Origin: Hoplostethus atlanticus
Lineage: Eukaryota > Chordata > Actinopteri > Trachichthyiformes > Trachichthyidae
Assembly: GCA_034670405.1 (NCBI GenBank)
Contig: JAXDDX010000012.1
Location: forward strand, 1,388,501 to 1,452,500
DNA length: 64,000 nucleotides
Reading direction: 5' to 3'
This document shows, one piece after another, positions 3,301 through 63,392 of the stretch. How positions within the stretch are numbered: position 1 is the stretch's first letter; every line of letters begins with the position of its first letter. Both the position numbers and the translations under genes were made by a program. Below the pieces are notes generated by a model that searched no databases, was not told the origin of the DNA, and was given only the letters and a program-made list of their open reading frames with translations.

Positions 3301-6300
3301 CCCTACCAACTCAATGTTTCATTAAGTAACTTGCCACTTAACTCAGTTATTACTTAGTGTATTACCTTTATTTGTTGCAGTAAAGTTGAGGCGTTGGACC
3401 CTTTTGCCGCGACTTTTTTTTCAGCAGGTTTTGCAGATTGGATATCCATCGTCCAACCCCCTGGTCATTCTTTGTGTATCCAAAATGCTCCCACACTGAC
3501 GACTTCAGTTTTTTTTTTTTGGTGGTCCCTCGGCCATTGTTTAGCTAATGTAACGTTAGCGTAGCCCCCATTGATGTAGGTAGCCCCTGGTGTCGCTCTC
3601 GTGACAGCATTTGCCGCACGGCATGGTGCACCACTGGTCGGGTGTTTAATTTTCCTCACTGTGCAACCGTTGTTCATAGAAAAATAATGTACAATAATGT
3701 CCCCTTTTTGAGAGTGAGAACAGAAACACTCTGTGTAGCTGAGCCTTTTTAAAGCGCGGTTAATAGTGAAATCGGTTAATCGCTGCATCCCTAGCCAACA
3801 CTGAGGTTTGTTGGAGAGTTTTTGTCACCCAGGCTCATGGTCTCCTGATTCCTAACCCTCTCTCATCAATCCTTTTTTTAACCTGGATACCCTTTCAGCA
3901 TACTTCTCCATTCTGATCATCTTTTTTTCTATCACTTTATGTCTTATCTCCTCTCTTTACTTGTGCCTGCTTTCCCATACATGGTTTTGGTTGAGCCAGG
4001 TCTTTACTAGACTTTTCGGGTGCTGCATCTGGGTTCTTTGCTGTTACTGTTTTGCTGACTGTGCTCAGAGGATCTATGCGGACAGGTATAGCCCTGAGCG
4101 GTCTCAGCCCTGCTCCAGTACACAGCAGGTGGCAGACCAAGCGGAAAGACCGGTTGGCATCGTAGGGGGCACCTCAGTCATCCTGTCTGTCTGATGGTCT
4201 GCTTTATGATCCGTTTTTGGGAGGAGTGCACCTCTGCAGTCTGGGTGGTGGGAGGACAATGAGAAGTTATTGGCTCCTCCTCAGAGGGATTTGAACTGTG
4301 AAAATGGCTTTGCGGCTTGACGGGGCACTGCATCATCAGGCAATGTTTCTGACTCCTTCCTTCAGACAGCTTGCTGGGTTGTGAGTAGGTCATTTCTCAC
4401 TTGGCAGACTTTAGACAGCACCCTTTTCAGTGCTGAGGTTTGATTGTATGGGTCATATTCTAGTACGTACTAATTGGTGCGTTATTACATTCCTTTGCTG
4501 AAGTCAGATCAAAGTGCTGCCATCAAACCTTTTCCGTCTGCAGTCATAAGTTTGACAGCTCACCTAGCTGAGTACTGACAGCTGAGGTATAATTGCTGGA
4601 TAGCAGATGTGTAAAGAAGTGGGTCAGTGTTCCTCTGCTGCTGTTGATGGTATTTCCCAGAGATTTCCCTTACTCAGCACGCGTAAACATTAGCAGAAAT
4701 TGCTTCATCATAACGGCTCCCAGAAGCTAATCGAGGGAGAAGTGGTGTTATGGTAACTTAGTTTGAGCATAGTGGGGCCTGATATTAACTGTTTCAGCCC
4801 CCAGACACAATCAGGATTTTTATTGGATCATTCTGCTGCTCCACACACCAAATAAAAGAGACTGAAATGATGAAGTCCAGTAGTTCGAGTCCACTTTAGG
4901 ATTGGTTGTTTACACTGTAGCTATATTTAATTCCATATGTCTCTAAAATGTATCGCTAATTAACAAAGGAAATGTAAGGTTGTCATGTTTTTCTTTCTTT
5001 GATACTAGATGTACTTTATGTTGTAACTCATCTGTGCAAACATGAATCAATGTATTTAAAGTGCAAACTAGAAGCTGCCTGTAGGCCTAGAGGTGTGTGA
5101 CAAAGCAGGAAACCATTTAATTGATTCTGATCTTCTAATGTATTTTGTATGAGCTACACGTTGAACAACTGATGGAAAACATACAGAAAAAGGCAGGAAG
5201 TAGACTAGGGTAGAATTTGCAATGTGAAAAACAACATGCTTGTTTTTCCAGAAGGGTTTTTTTCCCAGTGGAGTAATGTTGGATGATGGCTGTAGAGGGT
5301 TAACACCAGCCAAATGCCTTTCGAATTTGTCGTCTCTACCAAACAGTAAATCAACTGTAAATCATGTTTAGCAAATAACCAACCACAAGTTGCAGCTCCT
5401 TTTCTAAAAAATAAAATAAAATCTAGTTGTATGGTTGAAATATTGGTAGCTAATTTTTGATTAAAAAAATGTTTCTGTCCTAAAGGTACATGAAATAACA
5501 TAATTACTTTTGTTTGAATAGGCGTTATCACCTTCACAAAGCTTTCTGTAACGTTAACATCAGTTGATGAAGAAGACGCGCTACAGTATGGTCTTGTTCT
5601 CCCTACTCACAAGAAAGCTCCAGGCCATGAGGTTTGCAAGTGCACTAGGTCACTGGGTTCACTGACAGGCTAATAATGCTAACATACATTTTCTTATGTC
5701 AGTTCCACATCTCTCGCCACTTACCACAGTGCTGCTTGTGGTAACAAAGATGACTGGATCGTTCTGGAGCTATACTGCTTTATATTGTCCTCTGCTGCTG
5801 ATATGAAACTCATATGAGGCTCGTTTCGGCAGGAATGTTCAACAAGAAAGGAAGTTATTTGTAAGCACAATCTAAGCTATAGAGACTGTAGCGTTCACTG
5901 TTTGTGTTGCGTACAATTGGCGACTTGGTTGGATGGGAGCTTGCCAGGCAAATGATAGTGTTATTGTAACCTGGTAGGGGATTTAGTGTCTTGCTCAAGG
6001 ACACACCCTCAGTTCAAGTACAGTTTCAGTACTCACCGTGTCACCCTGCTGTCCCCCATGATGAGATGTTTTGATAATGTGAGACTACTGTTCTCTTCTG
6101 ATTTCCACAAACTAGTACAAACTGAGTACTGTGTTTTTTTTCAGGTGGGCGTGTACATTATTTGTGTTACCGGAGTACTACTAAGCTGAATGACAAATGT
6201 AACTTTTATCGACTTCATTTCTCTCCGTTTTGAAATCCAAAATGCATCCACATATCTGCCTTGAGACTTGCTGGGGCTATTTTAACGGAGTCCATCATTG

Positions 6301-14040: not shown

Positions 14041-14044
14041 CATA

Positions 14045-14137
14045 CACTACCGGTCAAAGGTTTTAGAACAGCCCAATTTTTCCAGTTTTCATTGAAATTT
14101 AAGCAATTCAAGTCCAGTGAATAACCTGAAATGAGTC
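14045..14137 (+). mobile_element. Tc1/mariner terminal inverted repeat fragment
   Basis: After a TA dinucleotide, CACTACCGGTCAAAGGTTTT starts a sequence typical of the outer repeat of teleost Tc1-like transposons ('ttagaacagcccaatttttcc', 'caagtccagtgaataacctgaaatg'). Only about 93 bp of one end is present. There is no transposase and no partner end within several kb, so this is a solo remnant. Confidence 0.75.
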
Positions 14138-14665
14138 GAGTCGGAGGGCGGAAGGAGTCTCAAAGCAACATCAGAGTAATTGACCATGTGTTACCCGTTA
14201 GTGTAAGTCACCAAGGTGTGATCATGAACCTTGTCTTTAAATAATACACAATATCAGAGTAGAAAAGCTCGTAGAGATTCATGTCCATCCTGTTTTTGTG
14301 TTCATGTGTTTGTGTATATTTGTGAATGTTGATGTCTAGCTAGGATTTTCTAGAAAGGTTGAAAATGTTTTGGTTTTGGAGGCACTGGACTCAGTTTCAG
14401 TGTCACCTCTTCCAGCAGCGTATTGGTGATGAGTTTTGTCAAGCTCACTCATCTCAATGTTCAATCATTTCATGAATCAATGTCACACAACAAGCAACTG
14501 GAGTTTTCACTCATTTATGATAAATAACAAACATTAAAGATCCATAACATCAAATATTAAATCACAATTCAACATGTAGCATCTTTGTAGCCAGAGATGT
14601 CCATGTAGCAGTGTCTCTTAGAGAAGCAGTCTTCATCCTCCTCCTCCTCCTCCTCCCTGCTCCTC

Positions 14666-15405
14666 TTACAGGAGACTGGCCAGTCCAGAGCAGATTCCTC
14701 TGCTGGATCCAAACATGGGAATGGGGGACTCCCAGCTCACAACAAGGTTGTGAGAGTCCAGATCAGTGACTGTGGGCCTCTTCTTGGGTCCAGTATTGGA
14801 GAAGGAGGGCATCACCTCCTCTTCATCACCATCCTCCTCCTCCTCCCTGCTCCTCTTACAGGAGACTCTGGCCAGTCCAGAGAAGATTCCTCTTCTGGTT
14901 CCAGCCACGGGACTGGGGAGCTTCCAGCTCACAACAGGGTTGGGTGACTCTGTGTCAGAGTCCAGATCAAACAATAGCGGAGCTAGCTCCTCATCCTCCT
15001 CTTCATCCTCCTCCTCCTCCTCCTCCTCCCTGCTTCTCTTATTGGAGACTCTGGCCAGTCCAGAGCAGATTCCTCTGCTGGGTCCAGCCATGGGACTGGG
15101 GAGCCTCCAGTTCACAACAGGGTTGGGAGAGTCCAGATCAGAGTCAAGATCAAACTCTAGCGGCGCTAGCTCCTCATCCTCATCTTCATCATCAGCATCA
15201 TAGTTTTCAGAGGTGATGATGATAGGTGGGGTCAGACGATTCTCCACTAACTCTTCATCCTCCTCCTCCTCCTCCTCTATAGACTCTGAGGATGAGTTTG
15301 ATGGAGGGTTCTCTTCATCGCTCACCTCAGGAGATTCATCTTCTACCTCACTCTCAGAGAACATGACCGGTAGTTGGTTCTCCCAGGGATGTTCAAAGTA
15401 CCAGA
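14666..15405 (-). CDS. Acidic repeat protein, exon 2 (tandem ~60-residue units)
   Basis: The acceptor CTTTTAG lies just upstream on the minus strand. The frame is open for about 245 codons to TAA at 14666-14668. The repeats are visible at DNA level as near-identical blocks around 14680-14750, 14850-14970 and 15040-15160. Glu runs are encoded by (GAG)n tracts prone to length change. Plus-strand serine-rich open frames across this region are mirror images of the GAG/GAT tracts. Confidence 0.6.
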
Positions 15406-15579
15406 CTAAAAGAAGAAAAAGAGAGTTAGTTCATCACCAGTGAAGACGTGGCTCGATGGGCCACACACACCCAGTTGTATTCTGATTTGTTTTGCTCCTT
15501 TTGTTGTTAGTTTATTAAACACGTATAAACATGTTGAAAACTCACCATACGCTGGATTTAAATAAAGGTTGGGGCTCAT
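14666..15579 (-). CDS. Unrecognised two-exon gene for an acidic repeat protein (257 aa)
   Basis: I do not recognise this protein. Exon 1 (15546-15579) encodes MSPNLYLNPAY; a 140-bp intron follows (donor GTGAG at 15545, acceptor CTTTTAG at 15406). Exon 2 (14666-15405) continues VWYFEHPWENQLPV-MFSESEVEDE. The body is Glu/Asp/Ser-rich. It contains about three tandem units of roughly 60 residues, each with a DLDSD..NPVVSW motif, P-S-P, then SRGICSGLARV and KRSREEE, a basic patch before an acidic run that could be a nuclear signal. No signal peptide or membrane segment is evident. The chosen ATG is the first in frame; an upstream GTG is in frame but unlikely. The last unit ends early (SGLASLL-stop) because of a 2-bp difference. 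No transcript evidence; it could be a gene carried within a mobile unit. Confidence 0.6.
15546..15579 (-). CDS. Acidic repeat protein, exon 1
   Basis: ATG at 15579, reading MSPNLYLNPAY plus one base; consensus donor GTGAG follows on the minus strand. The same exon with intact ATG, length and donor exists in copy 2 (53881-53914), which supports a real splice structure. Confidence 0.6.
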
Positions 15580-16031
15580 TTCTACAGTCACAAAGAAGTA
15601 TAGTCAAAGGCAGTTCAAGTGTCGCTGTTTCAGGTCTTCTTGTTTGTGATTTTGGCTCTGAGATCAGAAACTCTGCAACATGATGGAGTTCTATAGAATG
15701 TTCTTTGTGATGTCATAATGTGAATGTTCAGGCTGTCAGGATTGGTGGATTCGATTTCTAATGCCATGATCATGTTATCATATTGATATTGACATTTAAT
15801 AATATGTGGTATGGCTATACATTTGTTTTCTATATTAATGCTGTGGGCAAACAGCTTCATCCAGGCAGACAGAGACATGCAAGTCCTTTTTGCTGTATCT
15901 GTTCTGCTCTTATTGTTGTACCTCACCAACATACAGTCTAGAGGGATTCCCATATAGACCAATACGTGAGCACTATCTGGCCAGTAGATATTACATAGTT
16001 GTAACTGGTGTGGGTGGGTCAGGGGAGTCGA

Positions 16032-16082
16032 TGTTTGATTGACAGGTGATCTCTGGGAAGTGCTGTGTAGAAACACCACAGC
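16032..16082 (-). promoter_or_regulatory. 51-bp conserved block upstream of the acidic gene
   Basis: Lies about 450 bp upstream of the acidic gene's start. It is shared with a solo copy at 59765-59815 on the other strand (48 of 51 bases by my alignment) and, less closely, with copy 2 near 54357-54405. The core on the minus strand is ACTTCCCAGAGATCACCTGT followed by CAATCAAAC. A promoter or repeat-end role is inferred only from position and conservation. Confidence 0.4.
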
Positions 16083-16158
16083 ACACTTACACTCATCCTC
16101 CAATTAACCTTAGTCATCAAGCAACAATTGAGTGCATCTGTATCAGTAAGGTTTTATA

Positions 16159-16183
16159 CCCCCCCCCCACCCCCCCCCCCCCC
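16159..16183. repeat. Poly-C tract
   Basis: Near-uninterrupted C run with a single A, at the outer border of the acidic unit, copy 1. Confidence 0.9.
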
Positions 16184-22593: not shown

Positions 22594-25500
22594 GTATAGA
22601 CTTTGATCTGCGGACAGGACTCTCCTGGGCCTGCATGTTTGTTTGTTTCCCCAAATCAGGTTAAAAAAAAAAAAATATGTGGAAGAGTGATAATACGAGG
22701 CTGAACTTAAAACCCACTTAGGGGCCCTGGCTTTACTCCCCCGTCCGACTTGAGTGCTGAAGAGCGATGGGATCCAGAGCCAGTGTTTCTCACGCTGCAA
22801 AATAGATCCCTTGTAACAAGTCGGCTCTTCTAGTATTGTAGTCTTTAAAAAAGCTTATTTTTATGGCAAACGAGTGTGAAGCAAATCTCTCCAGACCAGA
22901 GGGGGTGAGAGAACTCGGTGCAAATCAACTTGTTTCAGGAGTTTTTGTGAATCAAGAGTGATTTTCTTGATACTAGTGCCGGTAAATTCAAGATAGCGAC
23001 ACTTGTGTTGTAGAAATAAAAAATCCCCAAAGAAGTGAAACAAGTGGAATTATCTCAACACACTGGCAGGATTTTATTTATTATAAGATATTAATTATAA
23101 GTATTATACGTTTTTTTTTTTTTTATACAAGATGACTTGTTAAGAGAGACCTTTTTGCAGTACAGCCATTTTCCCCAGATAAACCCCTAGCCTGTTATCC
23201 CAAGCTCACTGAAACGCTGTTATATATTCTCTACTAACCAGTAACAGACATATAGGTGTTTCTGGTTCTATTTGAGGCTGCATCCGTTTCACATGGATAA
23301 CATGTGGTTGCCTCTTGTTATTATGTCAATTGTAAAGAATATCTGCAGCAGTCAGAGCCTCAGTGCTCGGCCTGTTTCTCCCCCCTCAGCCCACAAAAGG
23401 GGCCTCTCCTTTCTAATGAAATATTCTCCAAATGACCTGGCTGGGCCCCGCTGCTCCAATCATTCACAGAGAAAACACTGATCTGATGAATGTGCTGCTA
23501 GACTGCAACTTCACACGTTCAGAAAAGTCCTTCCACTGAGTGAAAGATGATATTTTGTGTTTCTGAAACACTGTATTTTTTAGAAACAGCCACTAACACT
23601 AGGTAAGGCTAGAAAGAAAGTCCTTTTAGTTCATAGCCTCCATGGATTGTCTGCCTCTTTTAGATTTAAGTCTATTTTTGCCATTTCTGATGTAAGATGG
23701 TCGTCAGCCTCATGAAACAATGATAGAAATCCTATAATCAATTTTAGAAGGATACATATACAAACATCAGGGCAAAACTATAAACTACATTTAATGTCCT
23801 ATGGGAATATTACAGTGATAACAGATACAAATACCATAAGGTCACCATTGAGTACCACAGCCACCCTATAAATGAAAGAAATAAAAGAATAATAAAGTAT
23901 TTTTTGTTAGGTCAGATCTCAGCAGCTGTGCCTGGCCTACTTTTCCGTGCCAGTTTATGTTTTGAAAAGTAATAAAGGATATAGATGAAGTACTGAGTGG
24001 GTAAAAGAAAGGAGCCTAATGATAAGAGTGCTGGAAGCCCTTTAGATGGGACCTCAGTGCACCCCGCCCCCCAAGCAGTCCTGACCACAAGTAAAGCTTT
24101 GCGTGCAAATGGGAAAAGGAGTCTCCTGCGCTGCACTCTGCCCCCCCACCACCCCCCTTTACAAGTTTCCATTTGGGTTGAAAGAAATTGACTTTGGCAA
24201 ACAAACCACTAATTACAAGCTCCACGGTTCCTGTTTTATAATACAGACAAAAAGGGCCATTTTGCATGCAAAGCTCTTAAATGTAGGCATATTTTTGCAA
24301 AAAGAGAAGATTCCCCTGAGGTCTTTCAAGTTACCTGGCTGGTTATTGCAGGGCTTTCATGTCAAACACCCCCAAATAGACCTGCATGAGACCACAGACC
24401 CCCATTTGATGAGATTGTGTCCCGTTTTGTCCCCATCTGAGCAGCATTTGTTGTTGCCTTCATACAGAGTCGCCTATCTGTCTGTGCTGTAGGCAGAGAG
24501 ATCACAGTGCAGACAGCAGTCATCCTTACACAGTCTCTTATTGTGCTAACTTCCAGAAGTGGACTAATAGTGAGATTAAACTATGGTTTATTTTGCTGGG
24601 GACCCCTGGAGGCCCCCAGACCCCAGTTTGGGAACAAACTGGTTTAAGAGATTTCTGACAAACATGCCAAACAGCTCGGCTGCAGAGCACGCTAGCGTCA
24701 AACTATAGGCCTAAACATGTCTGGCTGCTGATTCAAAACGAGGACATATTCAGAAATAAAGCAGCCGTGCCTCAGAAGCTGTAAACACGTCTTGACATAA
24801 GTCTCTCTCTTTTTTTTTTTCTTCAGGAGAAATAAGGTGTTACTGCGACGCGCCGCACTGCGTGGCCACAGGATACATGTGCAAGTCGGAACTGAACGCC
24901 TGCTTCACCAAGGTCCTGGACCCGCTCAACACGAACTCTCCTCTTACCCACGGGTGTTTAGACCCCGTCGCCAACGCCGCCGACGTCTGCAGCAGCAGCA
25001 GCGCCAAGGTCACGGACGCCCTCAGCGGGGCCTCGGCCACAGCGCTGGAGTGCTGCCACGACGACATGTGCAACTACAGAGGCCTGCAAGACCTGGCGCA
25101 CACCAGGGAATCGACAGGTAAGAGGCTCGCTGGATTGGGATGCCGTCGCTTGGACGTTAACCTCCGCTGTGGTCAGGACGCTTGTGTTTTCACCCCTATT
25201 GAAACTCTCAAGACTGCAGTACCACGAGCTTCCAGGGTTCTTCAAACGCCTCCCTGTTTATGGACATGCAGGCCACCTTTGCCCCCTCCTTTTTTATAAT
25301 TCCAACCTTTGCAGAGCGTCAGTTTGATTTTTAATGGGCTCCAGCACAGCGGCTGGGAAGGCAGGCAGCAGGCAGTTTACCTTAAGCACTTGGACCAAGA
25401 TCAGATATAGTTTTTTTTTTATTATGTGTGCACCATGTAATTTTCCCACTGAGTAGGAATGTGCCTTGTAGAATGAATACTCCTTGACAAGGCTGCATGT

Positions 25501-26253
25501 TGGGCATAAATACTAGCTCGTTGAGTTATGAAAAGGTGCATAGAGAGAGAGAGGAAGGGGAGCTCTCCTGTGGGCATTTTCTGTTATGGCCCTGTCCAGA
25601 GTGGGCTATAGTTTATTAGCTCAAATTAATTTCTGGCCCTCGGTTGGGGTAAGGTGACTCATTTGCTTTTGCCCCCGCTGCCCTTTCTCGCCCTCGTCTC
25701 TCTGTCTCTCTCTTGCTCTGTTTCTCTCTCTCTCAGTTCAGTTACTTTATTGGAAACCGTATTGCAGTATACAAAATCATCAATATCTATAAGAACGTAC
25801 AACCAATCAGACGTCTCTCTCAACCTCTGTGCAGATCACGGCCGGTACCAGCCGGAGAGCAACAACAGGAACCTAGTGACCCGGGTTCAGGAGCTGGCCT
25901 CGGCCAAGGAGGTGTGGTTCCGGGCGGCGGTGATCGCGGTGCCCATCGCCGGCGGCCTCATCCTGGTGCTGCTCATCATGCTGGCGCTGCGAATGCTCCG
26001 CAGCGAGAACAAACGGCTGCAGGACCAGCGGCAACAGATGCTGTCGCGGCTCCACTACAGCTTCCACGGCCACCACACCAAGAAGGGCCACGTGGCCAAG
26101 CTGGACCTGGAGTGCATGGTGCCCGTCACGGGCCACGAGAACTGCTGTCTGACCTGCGACAAGATGAGGCAGGCCGACCTGGGCAACGACAAGATCCTGT
26201 CTCTGGTGCACTGGGGGATGTACAGTGGCCACGGGAAGCTGGAGTTCGTATGA
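22518..26253 (+). CDS. bambi: bambi: BMP and activin membrane-bound inhibitor, complete (261 aa, 3 exons)
   Basis: BAMBI is a single-pass plasma-membrane pseudoreceptor. It resembles TGF-beta family type I receptors but lacks the kinase, and it damps BMP, activin and TGF-beta signalling by forming inactive receptor complexes; effects on Wnt signalling are also reported (family knowledge). Exons 22518-22593, 24827-25117 and 25835-26253 join in frame to 261 codons plus TGA, against about 260 in mammals. Seen: signal peptide (about residues 1-20), an ectodomain with ten cysteines (C30, 32, 37, 44, 51, 69, 80, 101, 102, 107) ending in the ECCHDDMCNYRG signature, and a membrane segment at about 153-174 (AAVIAVPIAGGLILVLLIML). 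The short cytoplasmic tail is almost invariant (RMLRSENKRLQDQRQQML and SLVHWGMYSGHGKLEFV). It lies about 10 kb downstream of wac, as in other vertebrates. The a or b paralogue is not decided. Confidence 0.97.
23725..23880 (+). repeat. Dispersed AT-rich repeat, copy 2
   Basis: Same order of motifs as 19690-19880 ('ttttagaaggatac', 'aaactataaactac', 'gtcctatgggaatattacag', 'ataccataaggtcac'). Lies within bambi intron 1. Confidence 0.6.
24350..24450 (+). repeat. 'gaccccc' dispersed repeat fragment
   Basis: 'tttcatgtcaaacacccccaaa' then 'accacagacccccatttgat' resembles 48615-48715 ('cagacccccaggtagacaca', 'gtggacccccatttaat') and a shorter piece at 19080-19105. An interspersed repeat of unknown class. 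Confidence 0.5.
24827..25117 (+). CDS. bambi: bambi exon 2: cysteine-rich ectodomain
   Basis: The acceptor is tttcttcag before 24827 and the donor is gtaagagg at 25118. It encodes residues 26-122 (EIRCYCDAPHCVATGYMCKS through ECCHDDMCNYRGLQDL), with all ten ectodomain cysteines expected for the three-finger fold of TGF-beta type I receptor-like ectodomains. The middle (about residues 74-98) is Ala/Ser-rich and less conserved. Local GC content is clearly higher than in the flanking introns. Confidence 0.97.
25118..25834 (+). other. bambi intron 2 (717 bp)
   Basis: GT/AG intron whose length is divisible by three. Read through from exon 2, it stays open until a stop at 25297-25299. The last 181 bases before exon 3 are also open in the bambi frame. 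Contains a CT-rich tract before the acceptor (about 25689-25738). Confidence 0.9.
25835..26253 (+). CDS. bambi: bambi exon 3: juxtamembrane, transmembrane and cytoplasmic tail
   Basis: The acceptor is ctgtgcag before 25835; stop TGA at 26251-26253. It encodes residues 123-261: DHGRYQPESNNRNLVTRVQE, the membrane segment and the strongly conserved tail (LHYSFHGHHTKKG, ENCCLTCDKMRQADL, HGKLEFV). An open frame extends upstream to 25654, but the N-terminal part is intron 2. A second long frame over 25713-26501 is a shadow in another phase. Confidence 0.97.
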
Positions 26254-27660: not shown

Positions 27661-28074
27661 TTTTGTGGAGCGATTGCAAAATGTAGTTTTTCAAGTTGAG
27701 TTTTACATCCCTTTTACAGCACAGTGACTAGCGTCTGAGGAATTCAACTCAAAGGAGCTCGGTAACCGCTCTGTTACCCAACGAACTGGAGACTAGCGAG
27801 TGTAATTGGCAGAGAATCTGTTACAATACCAAATACTGGAAGAACACAAGAGTTTAGGTGCATTATGGGTAGAAGACCACTTTATATCTGAAAACTTGCG
27901 AAATGTGCATGCAAACGGCAACAAGTCTAACGGTAAACGGCTGAACCGCTTGATTTTGTTTTGACGCTTGGTTCGGAGGTTGTGGTCAGGGGTTTCGTTT
28001 GTGCTCACTTGTCAGAAGTTTCTAAACTACGGTCGGCTATTTACATTTCCAGCCGTCCCAACGTCACGTCGGCT
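27661..28074 (-). repeat. Inverted dispersed repeat, copy A
   Basis: The 414 bases are near-identical in reverse complement to 32811-33230. From one end to the other they share the 'tgtggagcgat' end, 'gaggaattcaactcaaaggagctcgg'-type sequence, and the 'ccgtcccaacgtcacgtcggct' end. Both carry a parallel minus/plus open frame starting MSTNE(T/K)PDHNL. Homology stops abruptly at 28074. Probably a transposon fragment; class unknown. Confidence 0.8.
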
Positions 28075-32810: not shown

Positions 32811-33230
32811 AGCCGACGTGACGTTGGGACGGCTGGAAATGTAAATAGCCGACCGTAGTTTAGAAACTTCTGACAAGTGAGCACAAACGAAAAACCTGAC
32901 CACAACCTCCAAACCAAGCGTCAAAACAAAATCAAGCGGTTCAGCCGTTTACCGTTAGACTTGTTGCCATTTGCAAGCACATTTTGCAAGTTTTCAGATA
33001 TAAAGTGGTCTTCTACCCATAATGCATCTAAACTCTTGTGTTGTTCCAGTATTTGGTATTGTAACAGATTCTCTGCCAATTACACTCGCTACAGTCTCCA
33101 GTTCGTTGGGTAACAGAGCGGTTACCGAGCTCCTTTGAGTTGAATTCCTCAGACGCTAGTCACTGTGCTGTAAAAGGGATGTAAAACTCAACTTGAAAAA
33201 CTACATTTTGCAAGTTATCGCTCCACAAAA
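32811..33230 (+). repeat. Inverted dispersed repeat, copy B
   Basis: Reverse-complement partner of 27661-28074, about 4.7 kb away. The parallel frame (32877-33113) differs from copy A at several residues (T/K, R/Q, C/S, R/C, P/S, S/C), so it does not look constrained as protein. Confidence 0.8.
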
Positions 33231-51616: not shown

Positions 51617-52885
51617 CCTTCCAGAGATAAGCCCTGGCAATCAGAAGGGAAAACACACAGTTGCGGTGATGAAATAAGGCTTTATTATTGGACAAATATC
51701 ATGGTGAGGTGACTCTTGATCAAAGACTGCACTGTACACCGGACCAGCCTGTCTGAGGTGGTGCAAGCCTTAGCACTCTGTTTACCCTGGCCTTAGATTA
51801 GGAGACGAGCTATGTTATAACTCCTCATATCACGTAACCATAACCTCTCTGTATCTTTTCACTCATTGCACAAGGTCAGTGTCAAGATATTGGTGTTCTC
51901 GATATGATAAAGGAGCCGAACTCTACATAAACTTTGAGTTGAACTTTGAGTTGTTGAATTTCGACCAAAGACGGAAAAGGGAAAAGCAAGAAAATGACAT
52001 GCTGGGAGAGGGAATGCGGAACGCCGGACCCGGAGGAGGATCCGCGCTGTTTGATGAGTGTCTTGGTGACAGGTACAAACAGCACATTAGAGGTGTTTTA
52101 GTATCCGTGGAACCTGTTCCTGTGGCCTGATGCCTCGACGGAGGTTCGTCCCGTTGAGGAGGGTGACAGAGAGCAATGTGCAGAATGCCAAAGGTTCCTC
52201 CTCGTGCAGCCTGCCTCTTAACCCATGTGAAAGGTTTCTGTTGGCCTGTCGGAGAGGCGCGAGGGCCGAGTGCAGGTCTTTTGTCATTCCTCACATTCTT
52301 CTCTGGTACACAAACAGGCTTGAAACTCACCTCGGCGCCTCTTCACCTTCGGCTGCCCCGCAAGGGTGTAATTAGGCCTAACCTCGGCTGTTCGAACAGC
52401 ATAATGACACGGTGTACACGGATCGCGGAGATGTGTTTGTTTCTGGAGAGGATGTGAGATTGGAGAGTTTCCAAGTTTTGAAGTTGGAGTGCATTGAGTG
52501 ACTATGTGGACTCTCATTGGTCCCTTCTGTCTCCAGTGTGTCTCTATGGGATGACACAGCAGGAAGCTGCCTACGTCCTTTCCCCAAGCCTTTACCTGAA
52601 AGCCTCCCCTCCTCCTCATCACCAGGCTAAGGGATGACATCAGCTGGTTAGCATGTTGTTTGGAGGTGTATTTCCAGGCGGGGAGTGGCAGCAAGCAATG
52701 GTCTTTCAACCTGCCTCAAGGTAGTTGTTGAAAGCACAGAAACTCCCAACCCCATATTTAGCTTATACTAGCAGGCGAGAGAAGTGACTCAGACTATTTG
52801 TGACCCTGTCTACCGGAAAAGATATAAAAGCTAGCCATATTGGATGATTTTGTCATTTATCGCTTATGATTTAAATCATCGGTTT

Positions 52886-52990
52886 CGGGGTGTCCTGCTG
52901 ACTCAGCAGTCTGGGGTGCATACCATGTGACCACGACATCCTGGGTTCGAATCCCGCCTGGGGCTTTTGTTGCATGCCTTCCTCATCTCT
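52886..52990 (+). mobile_element. tRNA-derived SINE, head (interrupted)
   Basis: 'ggtgtcctgctgactcagca' (A-box region) and 'catcctgggttcgaatcccg' (B box GGTTCGAATCC at 52944-52954), then 'gcttttgttgcatgccttcc', the recognisable 5' part of a common percomorph tRNA-derived SINE. The expected tail does not follow; the acidic unit copy 2 begins instead, and a matching tail is found at 54535-54605. Confidence 0.8.
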
Positions 52991-54475
52991 CATCATGTCC
53001 ATCTTGTTTTTGTGTTCATGTGTTTGTGTATATTTGTGAATGTTGATGTCTATCTAGGATTTTCTAGAAAGGTTGAAAATGTTTTGGTTTTGGAGGCACT
53101 GGACTCAGTTTCAGTGTCACCTCTTCCAGCAGCATATTGGTGATGAAGAGGTTTGTCAAGCTCACTCATCTCAATGTTCAATCATTTTATGAATCAATGT
53201 CACACAACAAGCAACTGGCGTTTTCACTCATTTATGATAAATAACAAACATTAAACATCCATAACATCAAATATTAAATCACAATTCAACATGTACCATC
53301 TTTGTAGCCAGAGATGTCCATGTAGCAGTGTCTCTTAGAGAAGCAGTCTTCATCATCCTCCTCCTCCTCCTCCTTGCTCCTCTTACAGGAGACTGGCCAG
53401 TCCAGAGAAGATTCCTCTGCTGGGTCCAGCCACGGGACTGGGGAGCCTCCAGCTCACAACAGGGTTGGGAGAGTCCAGATCAGAGTCAAGATCAAACTCT
53501 AGCGGAGCTAGCTCCTCATCCTCATCTTCATCATCAGCATCATAGTTTTCAGAGGTGATGATGATAGGTGGGTCAGACGATTCTTCACTAACTCCTCCTC
53601 CTCCTCCTCCTCTATAGACTCTGAGGATGAGTTTGATGGAGGGTTCTCTTCATCGCTCACCTCAGGAGATTCATCTTCTACCTCACTCTCAGAGAACATG
53701 ACCGGTAGTTGGTTCTCCCAGGGATGTTCAAAGTACCAGACTAAAAGAAGAAAAAGAGAGTTAGTTCATCACCAGTGAAGACGTGGCTCGATGGGCCACA
53801 CACACCCAGTTGTATTCTGATTTGTTTTGCTCCTTTTGTTGTTAGTTTATTAAACACGTATAAACATGTTGAAAACTCACCATACGCTGGATTTAAAAAA
53901 AGGTTGGGTCTCATTTCTACAGTCACAAAGAAGTATAGTCAAAGGCAGTTCAAGTGTCGCTGTTTCAGGTCTTCTTGTTTGTGATTTTGGCTCTGAGATC
54001 AGAAACTCTGCAACATGATGGAGTTCTATAGAATGTTCTTTGTGATGTCATAATGTGAATGTTCAGGCTGTCAGGATTGGTGGATTAGATTTCTAATGCC
54101 ATGATCATGTTATCATATTGATATTGACATTTAATAATATGTGGTATGGCTATACATTTGTTTTCTATATTAATGCTGTGGGCAGACAGAGACATGCAAG
54201 TCCTTTTTGCTGTATCTGTTCTGCTCTTATTGTTGTACCTCAACAACATACAGTCTAGAGGGATTCCCATATAGACCAATAAGTGAGCACTATCTGGCCA
54301 GTAGGTATTACATAGTTGTAACTGGTGTGGGTGGGTCAGGGGAGCCTATGTTGTCTATGATTGACAGGTGATGTCTGGGAAGTGATGTGTAGAAACACCA
54401 CAGAAACACTTCCAATCATCCTCCAATTAACCAAGCAACAACTTGAGTGCATCAGTATCAAAAGGTTTTATACCT
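52990..54475 (-). repeat. Dispersed acidic-gene unit, copy 2 (frameshifted)
   Basis: Nearly identical to 14276-16160 in the same orientation: upstream block, exon 1, intron, exon 2 and downstream flank. It is about 400 bp shorter, mainly because coding repeat units are missing, plus small indels in the flanks. Flanked by apparent SINE head and tail. Confidence 0.85.
53385..53914 (-). pseudogene. Acidic repeat protein, copy 2 (pseudogene)
   Basis: Exon 1 (53881-53914, MRPNLFLNPAY) keeps its ATG and donor. Exon 2 starts at 53740 with the same acceptor and reads the same MFSESEVEDESPEVSDEENP. Near 53566-53571 the plus strand has 'ggtgggtcag' where copy 1 has 'ggtggggtcag'. This one-base loss shifts the frame into a stop at 53508. 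Beyond it the original frame is still readable (ELAPLEFDLDSD, PSRG-type unit) down to about 53385. Only one full repeat unit remains. A broken copy, or a sequencing error at a G run. Confidence 0.7.
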
Positions 54476-54534
54476 GTTCCCTTCCTATGCTTGTCCCAGC
54501 AATAGCCTTAGGTTGTCTGTGTGTGTTGTCCATA

Positions 54535-54605
54535 ATTCTTCCTGTCTCTCTCTGCTTTCGCTGTGTAATAAAGGCAACCATGCTCCCAAAAAATCTTTAA
54601 AAAAA
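54535..54605 (+). mobile_element. SINE tail (separated from its head)
   Basis: 'ttcctgtctctctctgcttt' followed by 'gtaataaaggcaaccatgct' and an A-rich end is the usual 3' part of the SINE whose head is at 52886-52990. Position and orientation fit one SINE split by the acidic unit. Confidence 0.55.
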
Positions 54606-57600
54606 TCATGTTTGATCACCAGTATAAAGCCAGTATCAAAGTATAAAGTATCTAAAGGATGTGCTTTGTTGACATTCAGCATCTTATCACAAATGCATTC
54701 TGTCTCCAGTGTATCTGAGTCACAATTGAAGCAAAATAAGGAAGATGTTTTTCTTGCCCTCACAACCGCTCCATGTTGGTTGGTATTTCAAAGGCACATC
54801 ATTTCCTTCTCTCCAATGAAAAAGTCGTCTAGAGACAGAGGCTTTGAAAGGCTTCCAGCGAATCCTATTAAAGAAATATCATATAATTCAATTCTTTTTT
54901 TCTTCTTTACCAGAGGGGCCCATGTGAACAAAAGTGCTCCGAACCTATTCGTGCAACATCTGTTTGCAATGCTGTCCAATTCTGGGCACTGGGCACCCAA
55001 GAGGAGGAAAAGGAAGACAGTGCTTTTCGTCATCTGATACGGTCCCATTCGCACACAACAAAGCGAGGGGACATAAATCCTCACTTCTTCAATAGGAAAA
55101 TATCTTTTTTTATATTTCCGTCGAGGGGTCACAGTCGGCGTGACATCAATGACGTGTTCACTTTCTGTCTCTCGTTGTGGGACGGCCTTCGGGCCTTTCA
55201 TACGATGGCTTTGTTGGAACCCAGAATGTTTTCCTTTTGTTTCTGTATGGTTTTGTTTCATTCAATAGCGTTCCTGGTCTCCATTGAACTTCCCGTTTCA
55301 AAGAGGCCACAGAGATTTACTGAACTATTTTGTTTAACTTTCCAATTAGGGTGTTCCTTTTTGTTTTTTTTGTTTTTTTTTGTGGAAGACGCATCAGTTT
55401 TCCATTACCTTTCTCCACAACATCCCTAATTGGACAAAGGACAGTGTGCCCGCGAGTCAGGAATATGATGTCACATCGGCCTATAACGTCCTAAACATGA
55501 CAAGGTGGCATTTTTCTACTGGCAAACACATGTCTGCGAAGACCTCTCTCGTTTGTTGTGTCTTCATTAGAAGACATTGGAGATCAGCAAAGAAAACAGA
55601 CAGTGAAAGAAAACAGACATGTGTTGTGTTAAATAGGAGTTATTAGCTCTGAATTAATTACAGTAACAGCTCGTAAACAATGACAGAGGGGTTCACTTTA
55701 GTGTCGACAGTGCATTGTGGAAGTTTGAAGTTCAAATATAATCCCTTTCCCAGCATGTGGGAGTCTGCTTGTCTGTCTGGCAGTGAGAAAAAAGACAGAT
55801 AGAGACAGACTGCAAGACTGCTGACCACACACTGCAGTAGGGGGAACAGGTATGTGGAGGAGGGGGAGGCGCTGGGCTGTGTGCAGGGGGAGTTAATAGG
55901 TGAACGCACAACCCAGTCTTACCTCTCTCCCAGTGAACCTTCAGTTTGAACTGTTGATGTGTTGTTAGGCTAAACCATGGCCAAAGCTATAGCTCCCATT
56001 GGCTGCAGTATGACAATGCTAAAGGCTAAGTTAAGCTGTGCGTTGCGTCGGCCTGATTGATCTGGTGAGGCACGGCAGACAGCTCCAGCTGGAGATCAAA
56101 GGAAAGCCTCTTCTGTGCAGTAGAAGTGGGGGAGAGGGGAGGAGGGAGGTAGGTTGGAGGTGCGTCCCGCCCCCGTCCAACAGTGCCAGATGTTCCCCTC
56201 TCTCCGTGTCCCATCATGCTTGATAATTGCACGGCGCACCGTGGGCTCCGTCCATGCCCCCTTGACATTAAAGTGCAGCGCCTGGCGGGGCGCTGGGCTC
56301 AGCAGAGCTTTGAATTAGCCCCGGCTACAGCAGTTGCACAGGCTCCAGGAAGACAGAGCGTCATACCGCAACAGTCCCTCCACCCACCTCCATAACCCCA
56401 GAGAGGCCCTGAGTGGCCTGCAAGCCCCTAGGCTCAGGGGCATGATCCTGGGCCAATTATGGATCCAGAGCTGGGTGGCTGGTGGTATTAGTAGGACTGG
56501 AAGTGGAGGCGGTGGAGAAAGATGCGTGTGTTTATGTGTGCGTACACTGGAGCATGCATGTTTTTGTGTGCGTGCATGCTGTCCACATTCAACCCCATGT
56601 TTACTGGTGTGCGGCGCATCTCTCGCATCTGAGAGTCCAGCTAGGTTGCGTGTTCGTCCCTCCCTGTTACCGTGTGAGTCACCACCGCCGGCCTCGGGGC
56701 CTGTTCCACTGGCACCAGCCCTCCTCTCTGCATGGCCATCATTATAGGTACGCCGTATCCCAGGCAGCCATGGGGGCTGAAATTAGGGCGTGCAGGGACA
56801 GATAATGACAAGGTAGAGAGGCTGCAGACATGACACCAGCTTTTAGTGTGGCAGACTGGCTCCATGTGTCCAGAGACAGACCCCGCTCCCCTCCCTCCCC
56901 GCTGTCTCCCCCTTCTTCAGCCTCCAGCCTCCGTCCCCTGACCCCCACCTCGCCGGCCAATCTAACCCAATGAGAGGCTCCCCACGCTGGGCTGTCTGGG
57001 TGAGTCAGGTGCCTCCTCTGTCTGTCCTCCAGGGGCCCTCCACAGACAGATGGGAGATGATAAGTGGCTGCAGGTGGTGCAACGGCTGCACACACTCAGC
57101 TGTTGCTATCGCCGATCAAACACACACACACACACACACACATGCGCACACACACACTCACAGCACTCCCTCGCCCAGGCCTAGCTGGTCTGTCATCACC
57201 AGTTGTCCTATCTCCCTCCCCGCAGCCTTAACCTCGGTGCACCTGTACTGCAGGGGATACACACAGAGATAGACCTTGGCCTTGCCTTTATTTGCTCATT
57301 CCCCCTATGTCTCATTCTTTAAAGCCCCGGCTTGTCTCAGATAGTGGTGGCAGTGTGCTGTGTGAACAGTGAGGCCATTGACGACGTATTGATGAATGGA
57401 TCTAGATGTGACCGGGTGGGACGTTGGATGGCAGGTGCTCAGGGGGGCGTTGGGTTGAAGGAGCACTTTGTCACTTGGCGTTAAATCCCTTGGTTGCCTT
57501 TCTGTTGTCATGCCGTGCTTTTACTTGTGTCCATCTTATCAGCATATCATGTTGTACTAAAGCAAGGCTAGAAGTTCATTCAGTAGTAAATCATCTTATT

Positions 57601-63324: not shown

Positions 63325-63392
63325 ATGTTGAATGCACTTATTGTAAGTCGCTTTGGATAAAAGCGTCTGCTAAATGACTGTAATGAATGTAA
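63325..63392 (+). repeat. Teleost SINE/LINE 3' tail
   Basis: 'ttgtaagtcgctttggataa' then 'aagcgtctgctaaatgactg' and 'taatgaatgtaa' is a very widespread fish retroelement tail. Confidence 0.75.

Follow-up and report, generated by a model that had tools for sequence, protein, structure and literature searches.

A fast-changing, intron-bearing multigene family in Hoplostethus atlanticus, with SIM-type motif arrays in one branch and rolling-circle-type ends in another

Results and discussion

Two copies of a two-exon gene in the window

The 64,000-nucleotide stretch of the Hoplostethus atlanticus genome analyzed here (the window; C12:1388501–1452500, C12 being contig JAXDDX010000012.1) contains two copies, A and B, of a minus-strand gene unit. 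By self-BLAST and global alignment the segment common to both spans 14278–16161 (minus strand) at copy A, and alignment places the copy B segment at 52992–54505 (minus strand). Between them lies a BAMBI gene, recognized by the Pfam domains BAMBI and BAMBI_C on ORFs at 24796–25299 and 25630–26253. Elsewhere in the window, an inverted pair of about 420 bp (27661–28074 and 32811–33230; 96.7% identity by self-BLAST) flanks a 4.7-kb stretch, Rfam marks a UnaL2 LINE 3′ element at 63329–63383, and an ORF at 98–610, for which Pfam gave no match, is one that we take to resemble WAC.

Copy A reads much as the earlier note had proposed, as a two-exon gene with a 257-residue product (pI 4.05). Exon 1 (15546–15579, minus strand) starts with the ATG at 15579 and encodes MSPNLYLNPAY plus one nucleotide; it is followed by a phase-1, GT..AG intron of 140 bp (15406–15545, minus strand), alignable across the three subfamilies described below, and by an exon 2 of 740 bp (14666–15405, minus strand) that includes the stop codon at 14666–14668. 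The tandem units of about 60 residues noted earlier correspond to 183-bp units present in 3.0 tandem copies; self-BLAST and tandem-repeat analysis delimit three units of 183–192 bp (VVSW..SRGI(C/F)SGLA..KRSREEE) at 14636–15190 (minus strand). The last repeat of both A and B is 2 bp shorter than the other repeats of A, and because of this loss the A protein ends in GLASLL. Reading of the shifted frame recovers, at 14569–14637 (minus strand), an out-of-frame remnant of the C-terminus (DEDCFSKRHCYMDISGYKDATC plus a stop), and in both copies this frame still reads DEDCFSKRHCYMDISGYKD(A/G)TC, the C-terminus found in frame in other members. Upstream of exon 1, a promoter-proximal block, TATGACATCACAAAGAACATTCTATAGAACTCC (15685–15717, minus strand), can be made out in alignments, slightly altered, in members of each subfamily (G1, G2 and G3), and it may have a promoter role.

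Copy B is broken. Its exon 1 (53881–53914, minus strand) and its intron (53741–53880, minus strand; 140 bp, identical to that of A) are in place, while its exon 2 has a single repeat unit, where that of A has three, and carries a 1-bp deletion, so that the reading (53508–53740, minus strand) runs into a premature stop and ends at 88 residues. Both window copies are middling and probably decaying members of their family: A is open, end-frameshifted and without a strict SIM (see below), and B is broken.

The same-orientation duplication of A and B is real, with B being only 1.48 kb long and not the roughly 1.9 kb first described. Self-BLAST pairs 14279–14766 with 52993–53483 and 15000–16160 with 53347–54474, both in the same orientation, and global alignment of 14278–16161 with 52992–54475 gives 32 substitutions in 1474 aligned columns (2.2%), copy B lacking 375 bp, equal to two repeat units, and five short pieces that are present in A. 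The differences are unevenly spread, with 0 in the 140 bp of the intron, 14 in 554 in the 5′ flank and 11 in 388 in the 3′ flank. Transversions outnumber transitions by 21 to 11, many being G/T or C/A, an unexplained oddity of assembly or mutation. The ends first assigned to the duplicated segment were too short, as the match between A and L010, another copy on C12, reaches to about 14136, and that between B and L010 runs about 30 bp past 54475. By distance, the two most similar of the four C12 copies (A, B, L009 and L010) are A and B, with 18 differences per 1160 sites against 22 for A–L009, 25 for B–L009 and 32 for each of A–L010 and B–L010. None of the 1160 compared sites groups A and B against L009 and L010, so that A and B need not be direct duplicates of each other.

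Just past the 3′ limit of copy A, at 14043–14130, there is an CACTACCGGTCAAA.. end that we presume to resemble a Tc1-type terminus, a pattern whose frequency in the window does not exceed that expected by chance. On the other side, about 51 bp of the 5′ flank (16032–16083) are found again at 93–98% identity in at least eight other places (best 40 of 1228 candidates scored); in L038–L042 this stretch belongs to a dispersed repeat with common stretches of about 95–430 bp, for which those five loci gave no Rfam match.

Members across the genome

Searches of the fish's own genome (632,777,144 bases in 1161 contigs) bear out the idea of a dispersed gene family. With all 29 candidates scored, a protein query with the exon-2 N-terminus located family exon-2 starts at 28 places on 16 contigs, the weakest being one within an array on C183 (E 0.28); a 29th match, on C403 (E 1.8), was dismissed as chance. 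Just two copies and no homologue, the outcome that the earlier note had set against its own reading, did not arise. The DNA query 14276–16160 gave at least 143 matches, including at least seven family places, two of them fragments, inside about 2.8 Mb of C12 (best 40 of 1228 candidates scored in both cases). A C-terminal query gave 53 matches, several per copy (61 of 61 candidates scored), of which the weakest, on C26 (E 0.9), is probably chance, and all 31 matches to a third-subfamily query fell at already known places (49 of 49 candidates scored).

Alignment of the fetched loci to copy A yielded 27 gene models, a procedure that may overlook first exons that have diverged; no model was obtained from L027, L029, L030 or L032. 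A maximum-likelihood tree of 26 rows resolves a group G1 of 12 rows (support 100/96), which includes A, B and the three further models on C12 (L009, L010 and L012), and a group G3 of six rows (support 100/100). The remaining eight rows, designated G2, did not come out as a single clade in this tree, and L027, L029 and L030 were assigned to G2 by similarity. One G3 locus, L023 (C183:403000–406900), is an array of five modeled tandem copies with six N-terminal matches on a single contig, and a recognizable exon-1 ATG is missing in three of the five.

The ATG, donor GT and acceptor AG are kept, at the same places as in copy A, in 17 of the 27 models, nine of which have at least 230 codons (L009, L010, L013, L014, L018, L019, L021, L023e and A). 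Conserved start, splice sites and frame are thus present in several members, as in a functional coding family. Just three models (L014, L018 and L021, on three contigs) are intact through the conserved DCF(S/F)KRH C-terminus, so that the family may be mostly dead; neither A nor B is among these best-preserved members. L016a and L016b have exon-2 open frames of 372 and 374 codons and have lost exon 1. An AATAAA lies within 700 nt of the C-terminus in 5 of 14 copies examined and is missing in A, B and the intact L014. Unique flanks, splice sites and frames rule out a satellite as the sole explanation. A viral or phage origin of the protein was also rejected, none of 600 pattern matches in viral_contigs being confirmed and phages giving no match, in collections that are poor for a fish gene.

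Spread at the DNA level

The earlier argument that the copies are not retrocopies extends to the whole family, since the intron and the 5′ flank are retained in members of all three subfamilies; the introns kept in G1, G2 and G3 rule out a retrocopy family. The promoter-proximal block, exon 1, intron and exon 2 move together, and the spread was therefore at the DNA level.

Copy B is an insertion into an older, SINE-like repeat, which is interrupted there. A repeat search with the copy B unit removed placed the 5′ part of this repeat at 52883–52992 (plus strand), to the left of copy B, and its 3′ part at 54539–54609 (plus strand), to the right; we take the repeat to be a tRNA-type SINE. Of 41 other matches listed for the repeat (best 40 of 235 candidates), 23 end at query 131–133, the start of the copy B unit. 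On C1, C5 and C87, 8 bp separate the 5′ part from the right part, which starts at query 165, and three of the matches listed (C25, C381 and C1140, at 69–72%) run across the insertion point of B. About 31 bp at the right edge of copy B belong neither to the repeat nor to the recognized unit.

Mariner-type MITE ends (TACAGTTTTTTNCGATTGCT and relatives) stand on one or both sides of six G1 and two G2 loci, these being the only ones among 26 (L011, L013, L014, L016, L017, L018, L025 and L030), and the end pattern was not found in the window at up to 3 mismatches. Their absence from the window and presence at only 8 of 26 loci rule out mariner MITEs as the general carrier. Beside the family member in L030 there is also a 1.4-kb mariner-type element (3706–5104, sense), with inverted ends of about 370 bp at 93.5% identity and an ORF piece inside.

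G2 copies between rolling-circle-type ends

The surroundings of the G2 genes are an abundant repeat (2529 first-look candidates, best 40 scored) that begins TTATTAGGGTTCAAACCCCGAAGGGGTAGAACCCTATTG (START), a beginning often arranged as roughly 50-bp subunits in tandem, and whose other end reads GGTTTGAACCCGCAAATCGCCGCTTGCGGCTATATT (END). The flanks were at first thought to be LTRs, an idea abandoned once the ends turned out to be of the START/END type. In 5 of 11 G2 loci a START lies upstream and an END downstream of the gene (sense coordinates: L015, 2435–4648; L019, 3175–5208; L022, 3082 to about 5543; L024, 549–5631; L028, 2659–5724), and the other 6 of 11 have no upstream START. An END is found downstream in 8 of 11 loci when partial ones (L020, L022 and L027) are counted, and both START and END are missing in L025, L029 and L030. 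At the thresholds used, homology among the five START–END loci stops at these ends and the outer flanks differ, and none of the five has an END between the upstream START and the gene. No START or END was found in the window or in G1 and G3 loci at E 0.01.

The ends have further structure. Inverted repeats of 11 bp lie 6 nt inside START (GGGTTCAAACC) and about 25 nt before the matched END stretch stops (GGTTTGAACCC). A stem is predicted for the 3′ palindrome GCCGCTTGCGGC in three of seven ends (L021, L024 and L028); in L015, L019, L022 and L027, whose ends are diverged or truncated, no stem is predicted. A DINE-1/HINE element would be expected to insert at TT, to make no target-site duplication and to have T strings at its ends; no target-site duplication is evident in the five bounded loci, where the base to the left of START is C, A, T, G and A. 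An excerpt of PMC4067079 proposes that end bypass, or composite transposition between neighbors, captures host sequence and makes tandem arrays, puts composite transposition forward as a cause of DINE-1-linked gene duplications, and cites gene fragments on rolling-circle elements in bats and maize. As judged from their sequence, the anatomy of the G2 loci matches the prediction of the composite-transposition model in that excerpt.

The proposal that the gene is carried on a mobile unit thus divides: it is not supported for the window's own copies, whose ends vary, and is supported for subfamily G2, in which 5 of 11 loci lie within rolling-circle-type ends. One could go further and regard the whole family as a transposon of its own, the acidic protein being an accessory gene and the fixed ends so far unrecognized, as might be suggested by the dispersal across 16 contigs, the fixed outer ends of the five G2 units, and the mariner-type MITE ends beside six G1 loci. 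We consider this very unlikely, given that the neighbors of the C12 copies are not those of the remaining G1 copies or of G2, that neither A nor B is flanked by a convincing pair of terminal repeats, and that the MITE end pattern is missing from the window at up to 3 mismatches. In addition, A, B, L009 and L010 do not share their ends, so that these copies are not a fixed-end element, and a fixed-end transposon is ruled out for A and B.

SIM-type motifs in the predicted proteins

The earlier note could not place the protein in any family, and Pfam scans of A, L014, L021 and L023e agree, giving only matches below cut-off; they also contain no RING domain of the kind expected in a SUMO-targeted ubiquitin ligase. 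A PDB search gave one weak acidic match for A (E 0.28) and none for a motif pair. Between a conserved N-terminus and a conserved C-terminus the proteins have first hydrophobic-plus-acidic units and then VVSW/KRSREEE units, both in tandem. Copy A encodes 26% D + E together with KRSR/KKR patches, and the product is short, strongly acidic, probably disordered and probably nuclear.

In seven G1 models, VGKxLTPPVII(I/L)TSDSEEEE-type units stand in tandem between the N-terminus and the VVSW units (2–5 in the counted frames). The SIM consensus, as given in an excerpt of PMC8616421, is hXhh or hhXh (h = I, V or L) beside acidic residues or serines, an example from Daxx being IIVLSDSD. SIM-consensus motifs in G1 fall mostly within tandem LTPPVIIITSDSEEEE units; the counterpart sequence is LTPPDIILPSYSEEEE in G2 and TPPVITISDSEED in two G3 copies. 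A strict count over 26 proteins, N-terminal motif included, gave three to six SIMs in seven, one in nine and zero in ten (A, B, L009, L010, L012, L023c, L023d, L023e, L025 and L031). The seven candidate SIM-rich proteins (L011, L013, L014, L016a, L016b, L017 and L018) are 7 of the 12 G1 models, and L011 has further motif units in another frame that were left out of the count. Over 300 shuffles the means for these seven were 0.37–0.79; the observed count lies above all 300 shuffles in L011, L016a and L016b and was equaled by at least one shuffle in L013, L014, L017 and L018. Neither A nor B contains a strict SIM, A having just IIIT-SEN and VMF-SES remnants. Tandem SIMs are thus a credible predicted property of the seven G1 models, not of the window copies.

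A different reading of these proteins is that they are acidic transcription-activating or histone-binding factors, in which the hydrophobic-acidic units are not SUMO motifs at all. The composition of copy A is of this type (26% D + E, pI 4.05), and A has LAPLEFDLDSD-type acidic-hydrophobic stretches and no strict SIM. Against this, the G1 units fit the SIM consensus followed by an S-x-S/acidic stretch, near the IIVLSDSD of Daxx in the PMC8616421 excerpt, and we judge the alternative to be unlikely.

Divergence of exons and introns

In none of the 12 pairs compared is exon 2 less diverged than the intron; it is significantly more diverged in seven, and the two are nearly equal in three. The pairs were our choice from 14 aligned sequences and are not independent. 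In the pair L014–L019, 6 of 130 intron positions differ as against 34 of 120 in the exon (p = 2.1e-7). When all pairs are averaged by group, dN of the exon is higher than the divergence of the intron in 8 of 10 comparisons, the exceptions being those within G1 (dN 0.055, intron 0.112) and within G1b. For the N-terminal region, 7 of 10 group comparisons give a dN/dS of 0.49–0.76, and the other three, each of G2 with another group, exceed 1 (G1–G2, 1.90; G2–G3, 1.28; G1b–G2, 1.12). The VVSW units give a dN/dS of 1.66 (14 distinct of 22 found), so that no purifying selection is evident there, and the hydrophobic-acidic units give 0.59 (over 11) and 0.33 (over 12), values biased low because these units were chosen by protein pattern, as the VVSW units were likewise. 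With exons more diverged than introns, loss of constraint alone would not account for the pattern, and the alignments suggest diversification between subfamilies, or homogenized introns, with weak constraint inside subfamilies.

These data bear on whether the family is simply a non-functional repeat, that is, an old gene whose pseudogene copies were amplified passively in TE-rich segmental duplications and whose frames are open through youth. Several observations fit such a history: 18 of 27 models either have a damaged start and splice set or fall short of 230 codons, the 14 distinct VVSW units show the high dN/dS just given, the C-terminal frameshift is common to A and B, and SINE-, MITE- or HINE-type sequence adjoins the gene in 17 of 26 loci examined. 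Passive decay, however, predicts equal divergence of exons and introns, and from this the 12 chosen, non-independent pairs (exon significantly ahead in seven, near equality in three) and the group means (8 of 10, the exceptions being within G1 and G1b) depart; furthermore, three copies, each on a different contig, have retained the start, the splice sites and the C-terminus. We regard a dead repeat as a somewhat unlikely explanation for the family as a whole.

A proposed history of the family

Copy number, gene structure, the decay of most copies and DNA-level spread with the intron and 5′ flank are established by these observations, as are the insertion of copy B in a SINE-like repeat and the bounding of five G2 copies by DINE-1/Helentron-like ends. 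What emerges is an intron-bearing family, fast-changing and absent from the libraries searched, of which one branch has SIM-type arrays and another shows bounding of the rolling-circle type. The account that we favor, with a probability of roughly 60%, is that of a dispersed multigene family outside the libraries searched, whose G2 copies spread in rolling-circle units and whose SIM-rich G1 members are candidate SUMO binders. In each intact gene a very small first exon is followed by a single phase-1 intron and a large second exon. The G2 copies would have spread by composite (end-bypass) rolling-circle transposition between neighboring elements, and the window's own C12 copies through other DNA-level duplication. 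With their several motifs, the SIM-rich G1 proteins may bind SUMO or SUMO chains, and by such binding would join nuclear SUMO-rich assemblies.

The host SUMO system silences transposons and viruses. It is conceivable, and in our view quite improbable, that this is a multi-SIM nuclear family that both spreads as cargo of composite Helentron-type units and engages the host SUMO system, a host-type gene that has become mobile DNA or is in conflict with it, in which case the exon-over-intron divergence would mark the conflict.

Should intact members be expressed, this would be a vertebrate multigene family absent from the searched libraries, with tandem SUMO-type motif arrays. The family also leaves a readable record of its spread, in tandem arrays, in a SINE-like repeat interrupted by an insertion, and in cargo between Helentron-like ends. 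With an intron-bearing gene found repeatedly between START and END, composite transposition would become testable in such a fish genome. Titles and the openings of abstracts in the literature on multicopy or poly-SIM fish families and on introns outliving exons make no mention of this family, which does not establish its absence from print.

Comparison with known systems

Among multi-SIM proteins, the SUMO-targeted ubiquitin ligases RNF4 and RNF111 resemble the seven G1 models in having several tandem SIM-consensus motifs. They differ in that the four fish members scanned have neither a RING nor any other Pfam domain above cut-off, and in that the fish motifs, which are putative SIMs, are embedded in poly-glutamate. 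Slx/Sly of mouse are an example of the rapid birth and death of multicopy reproductive gene families, and the fish family may be likened to them by description only, as multicopy, acidic, fast-changing and rich in pseudogenes. The likeness to Daxx is drawn from the SIM alone: a hydrophobic core directly before S-x-S and acidic residues, as in VIIITSDSEEEE, recalls the Daxx-type SIM in the excerpt of PMC8616421, with the difference that the fish family has tandem arrays.

For the G2 surroundings, the closest counterparts are the non-autonomous Helentrons known as DINE-1 or HINEs, which the excerpt of PMC4067079 characterizes by inverted repeats close to the termini, a palindrome at the 3′ end, tandem repeats and insertion at T-rich sites. 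The G2 repeat resembles them in its subterminal inverted repeats, its 3′ palindrome and its internal tandem repeats of about 50 bp. In mite HINEs the inverted repeats, of 12–15 bp, are placed at about 2–4 and 38–60 in the same excerpt, and the distances of the G2 inverted repeats from the ends are slightly beyond the range described there. A further difference is that in G2 a two-exon, host-type gene is enclosed, with the START and the END on its two sides coming from different elements.
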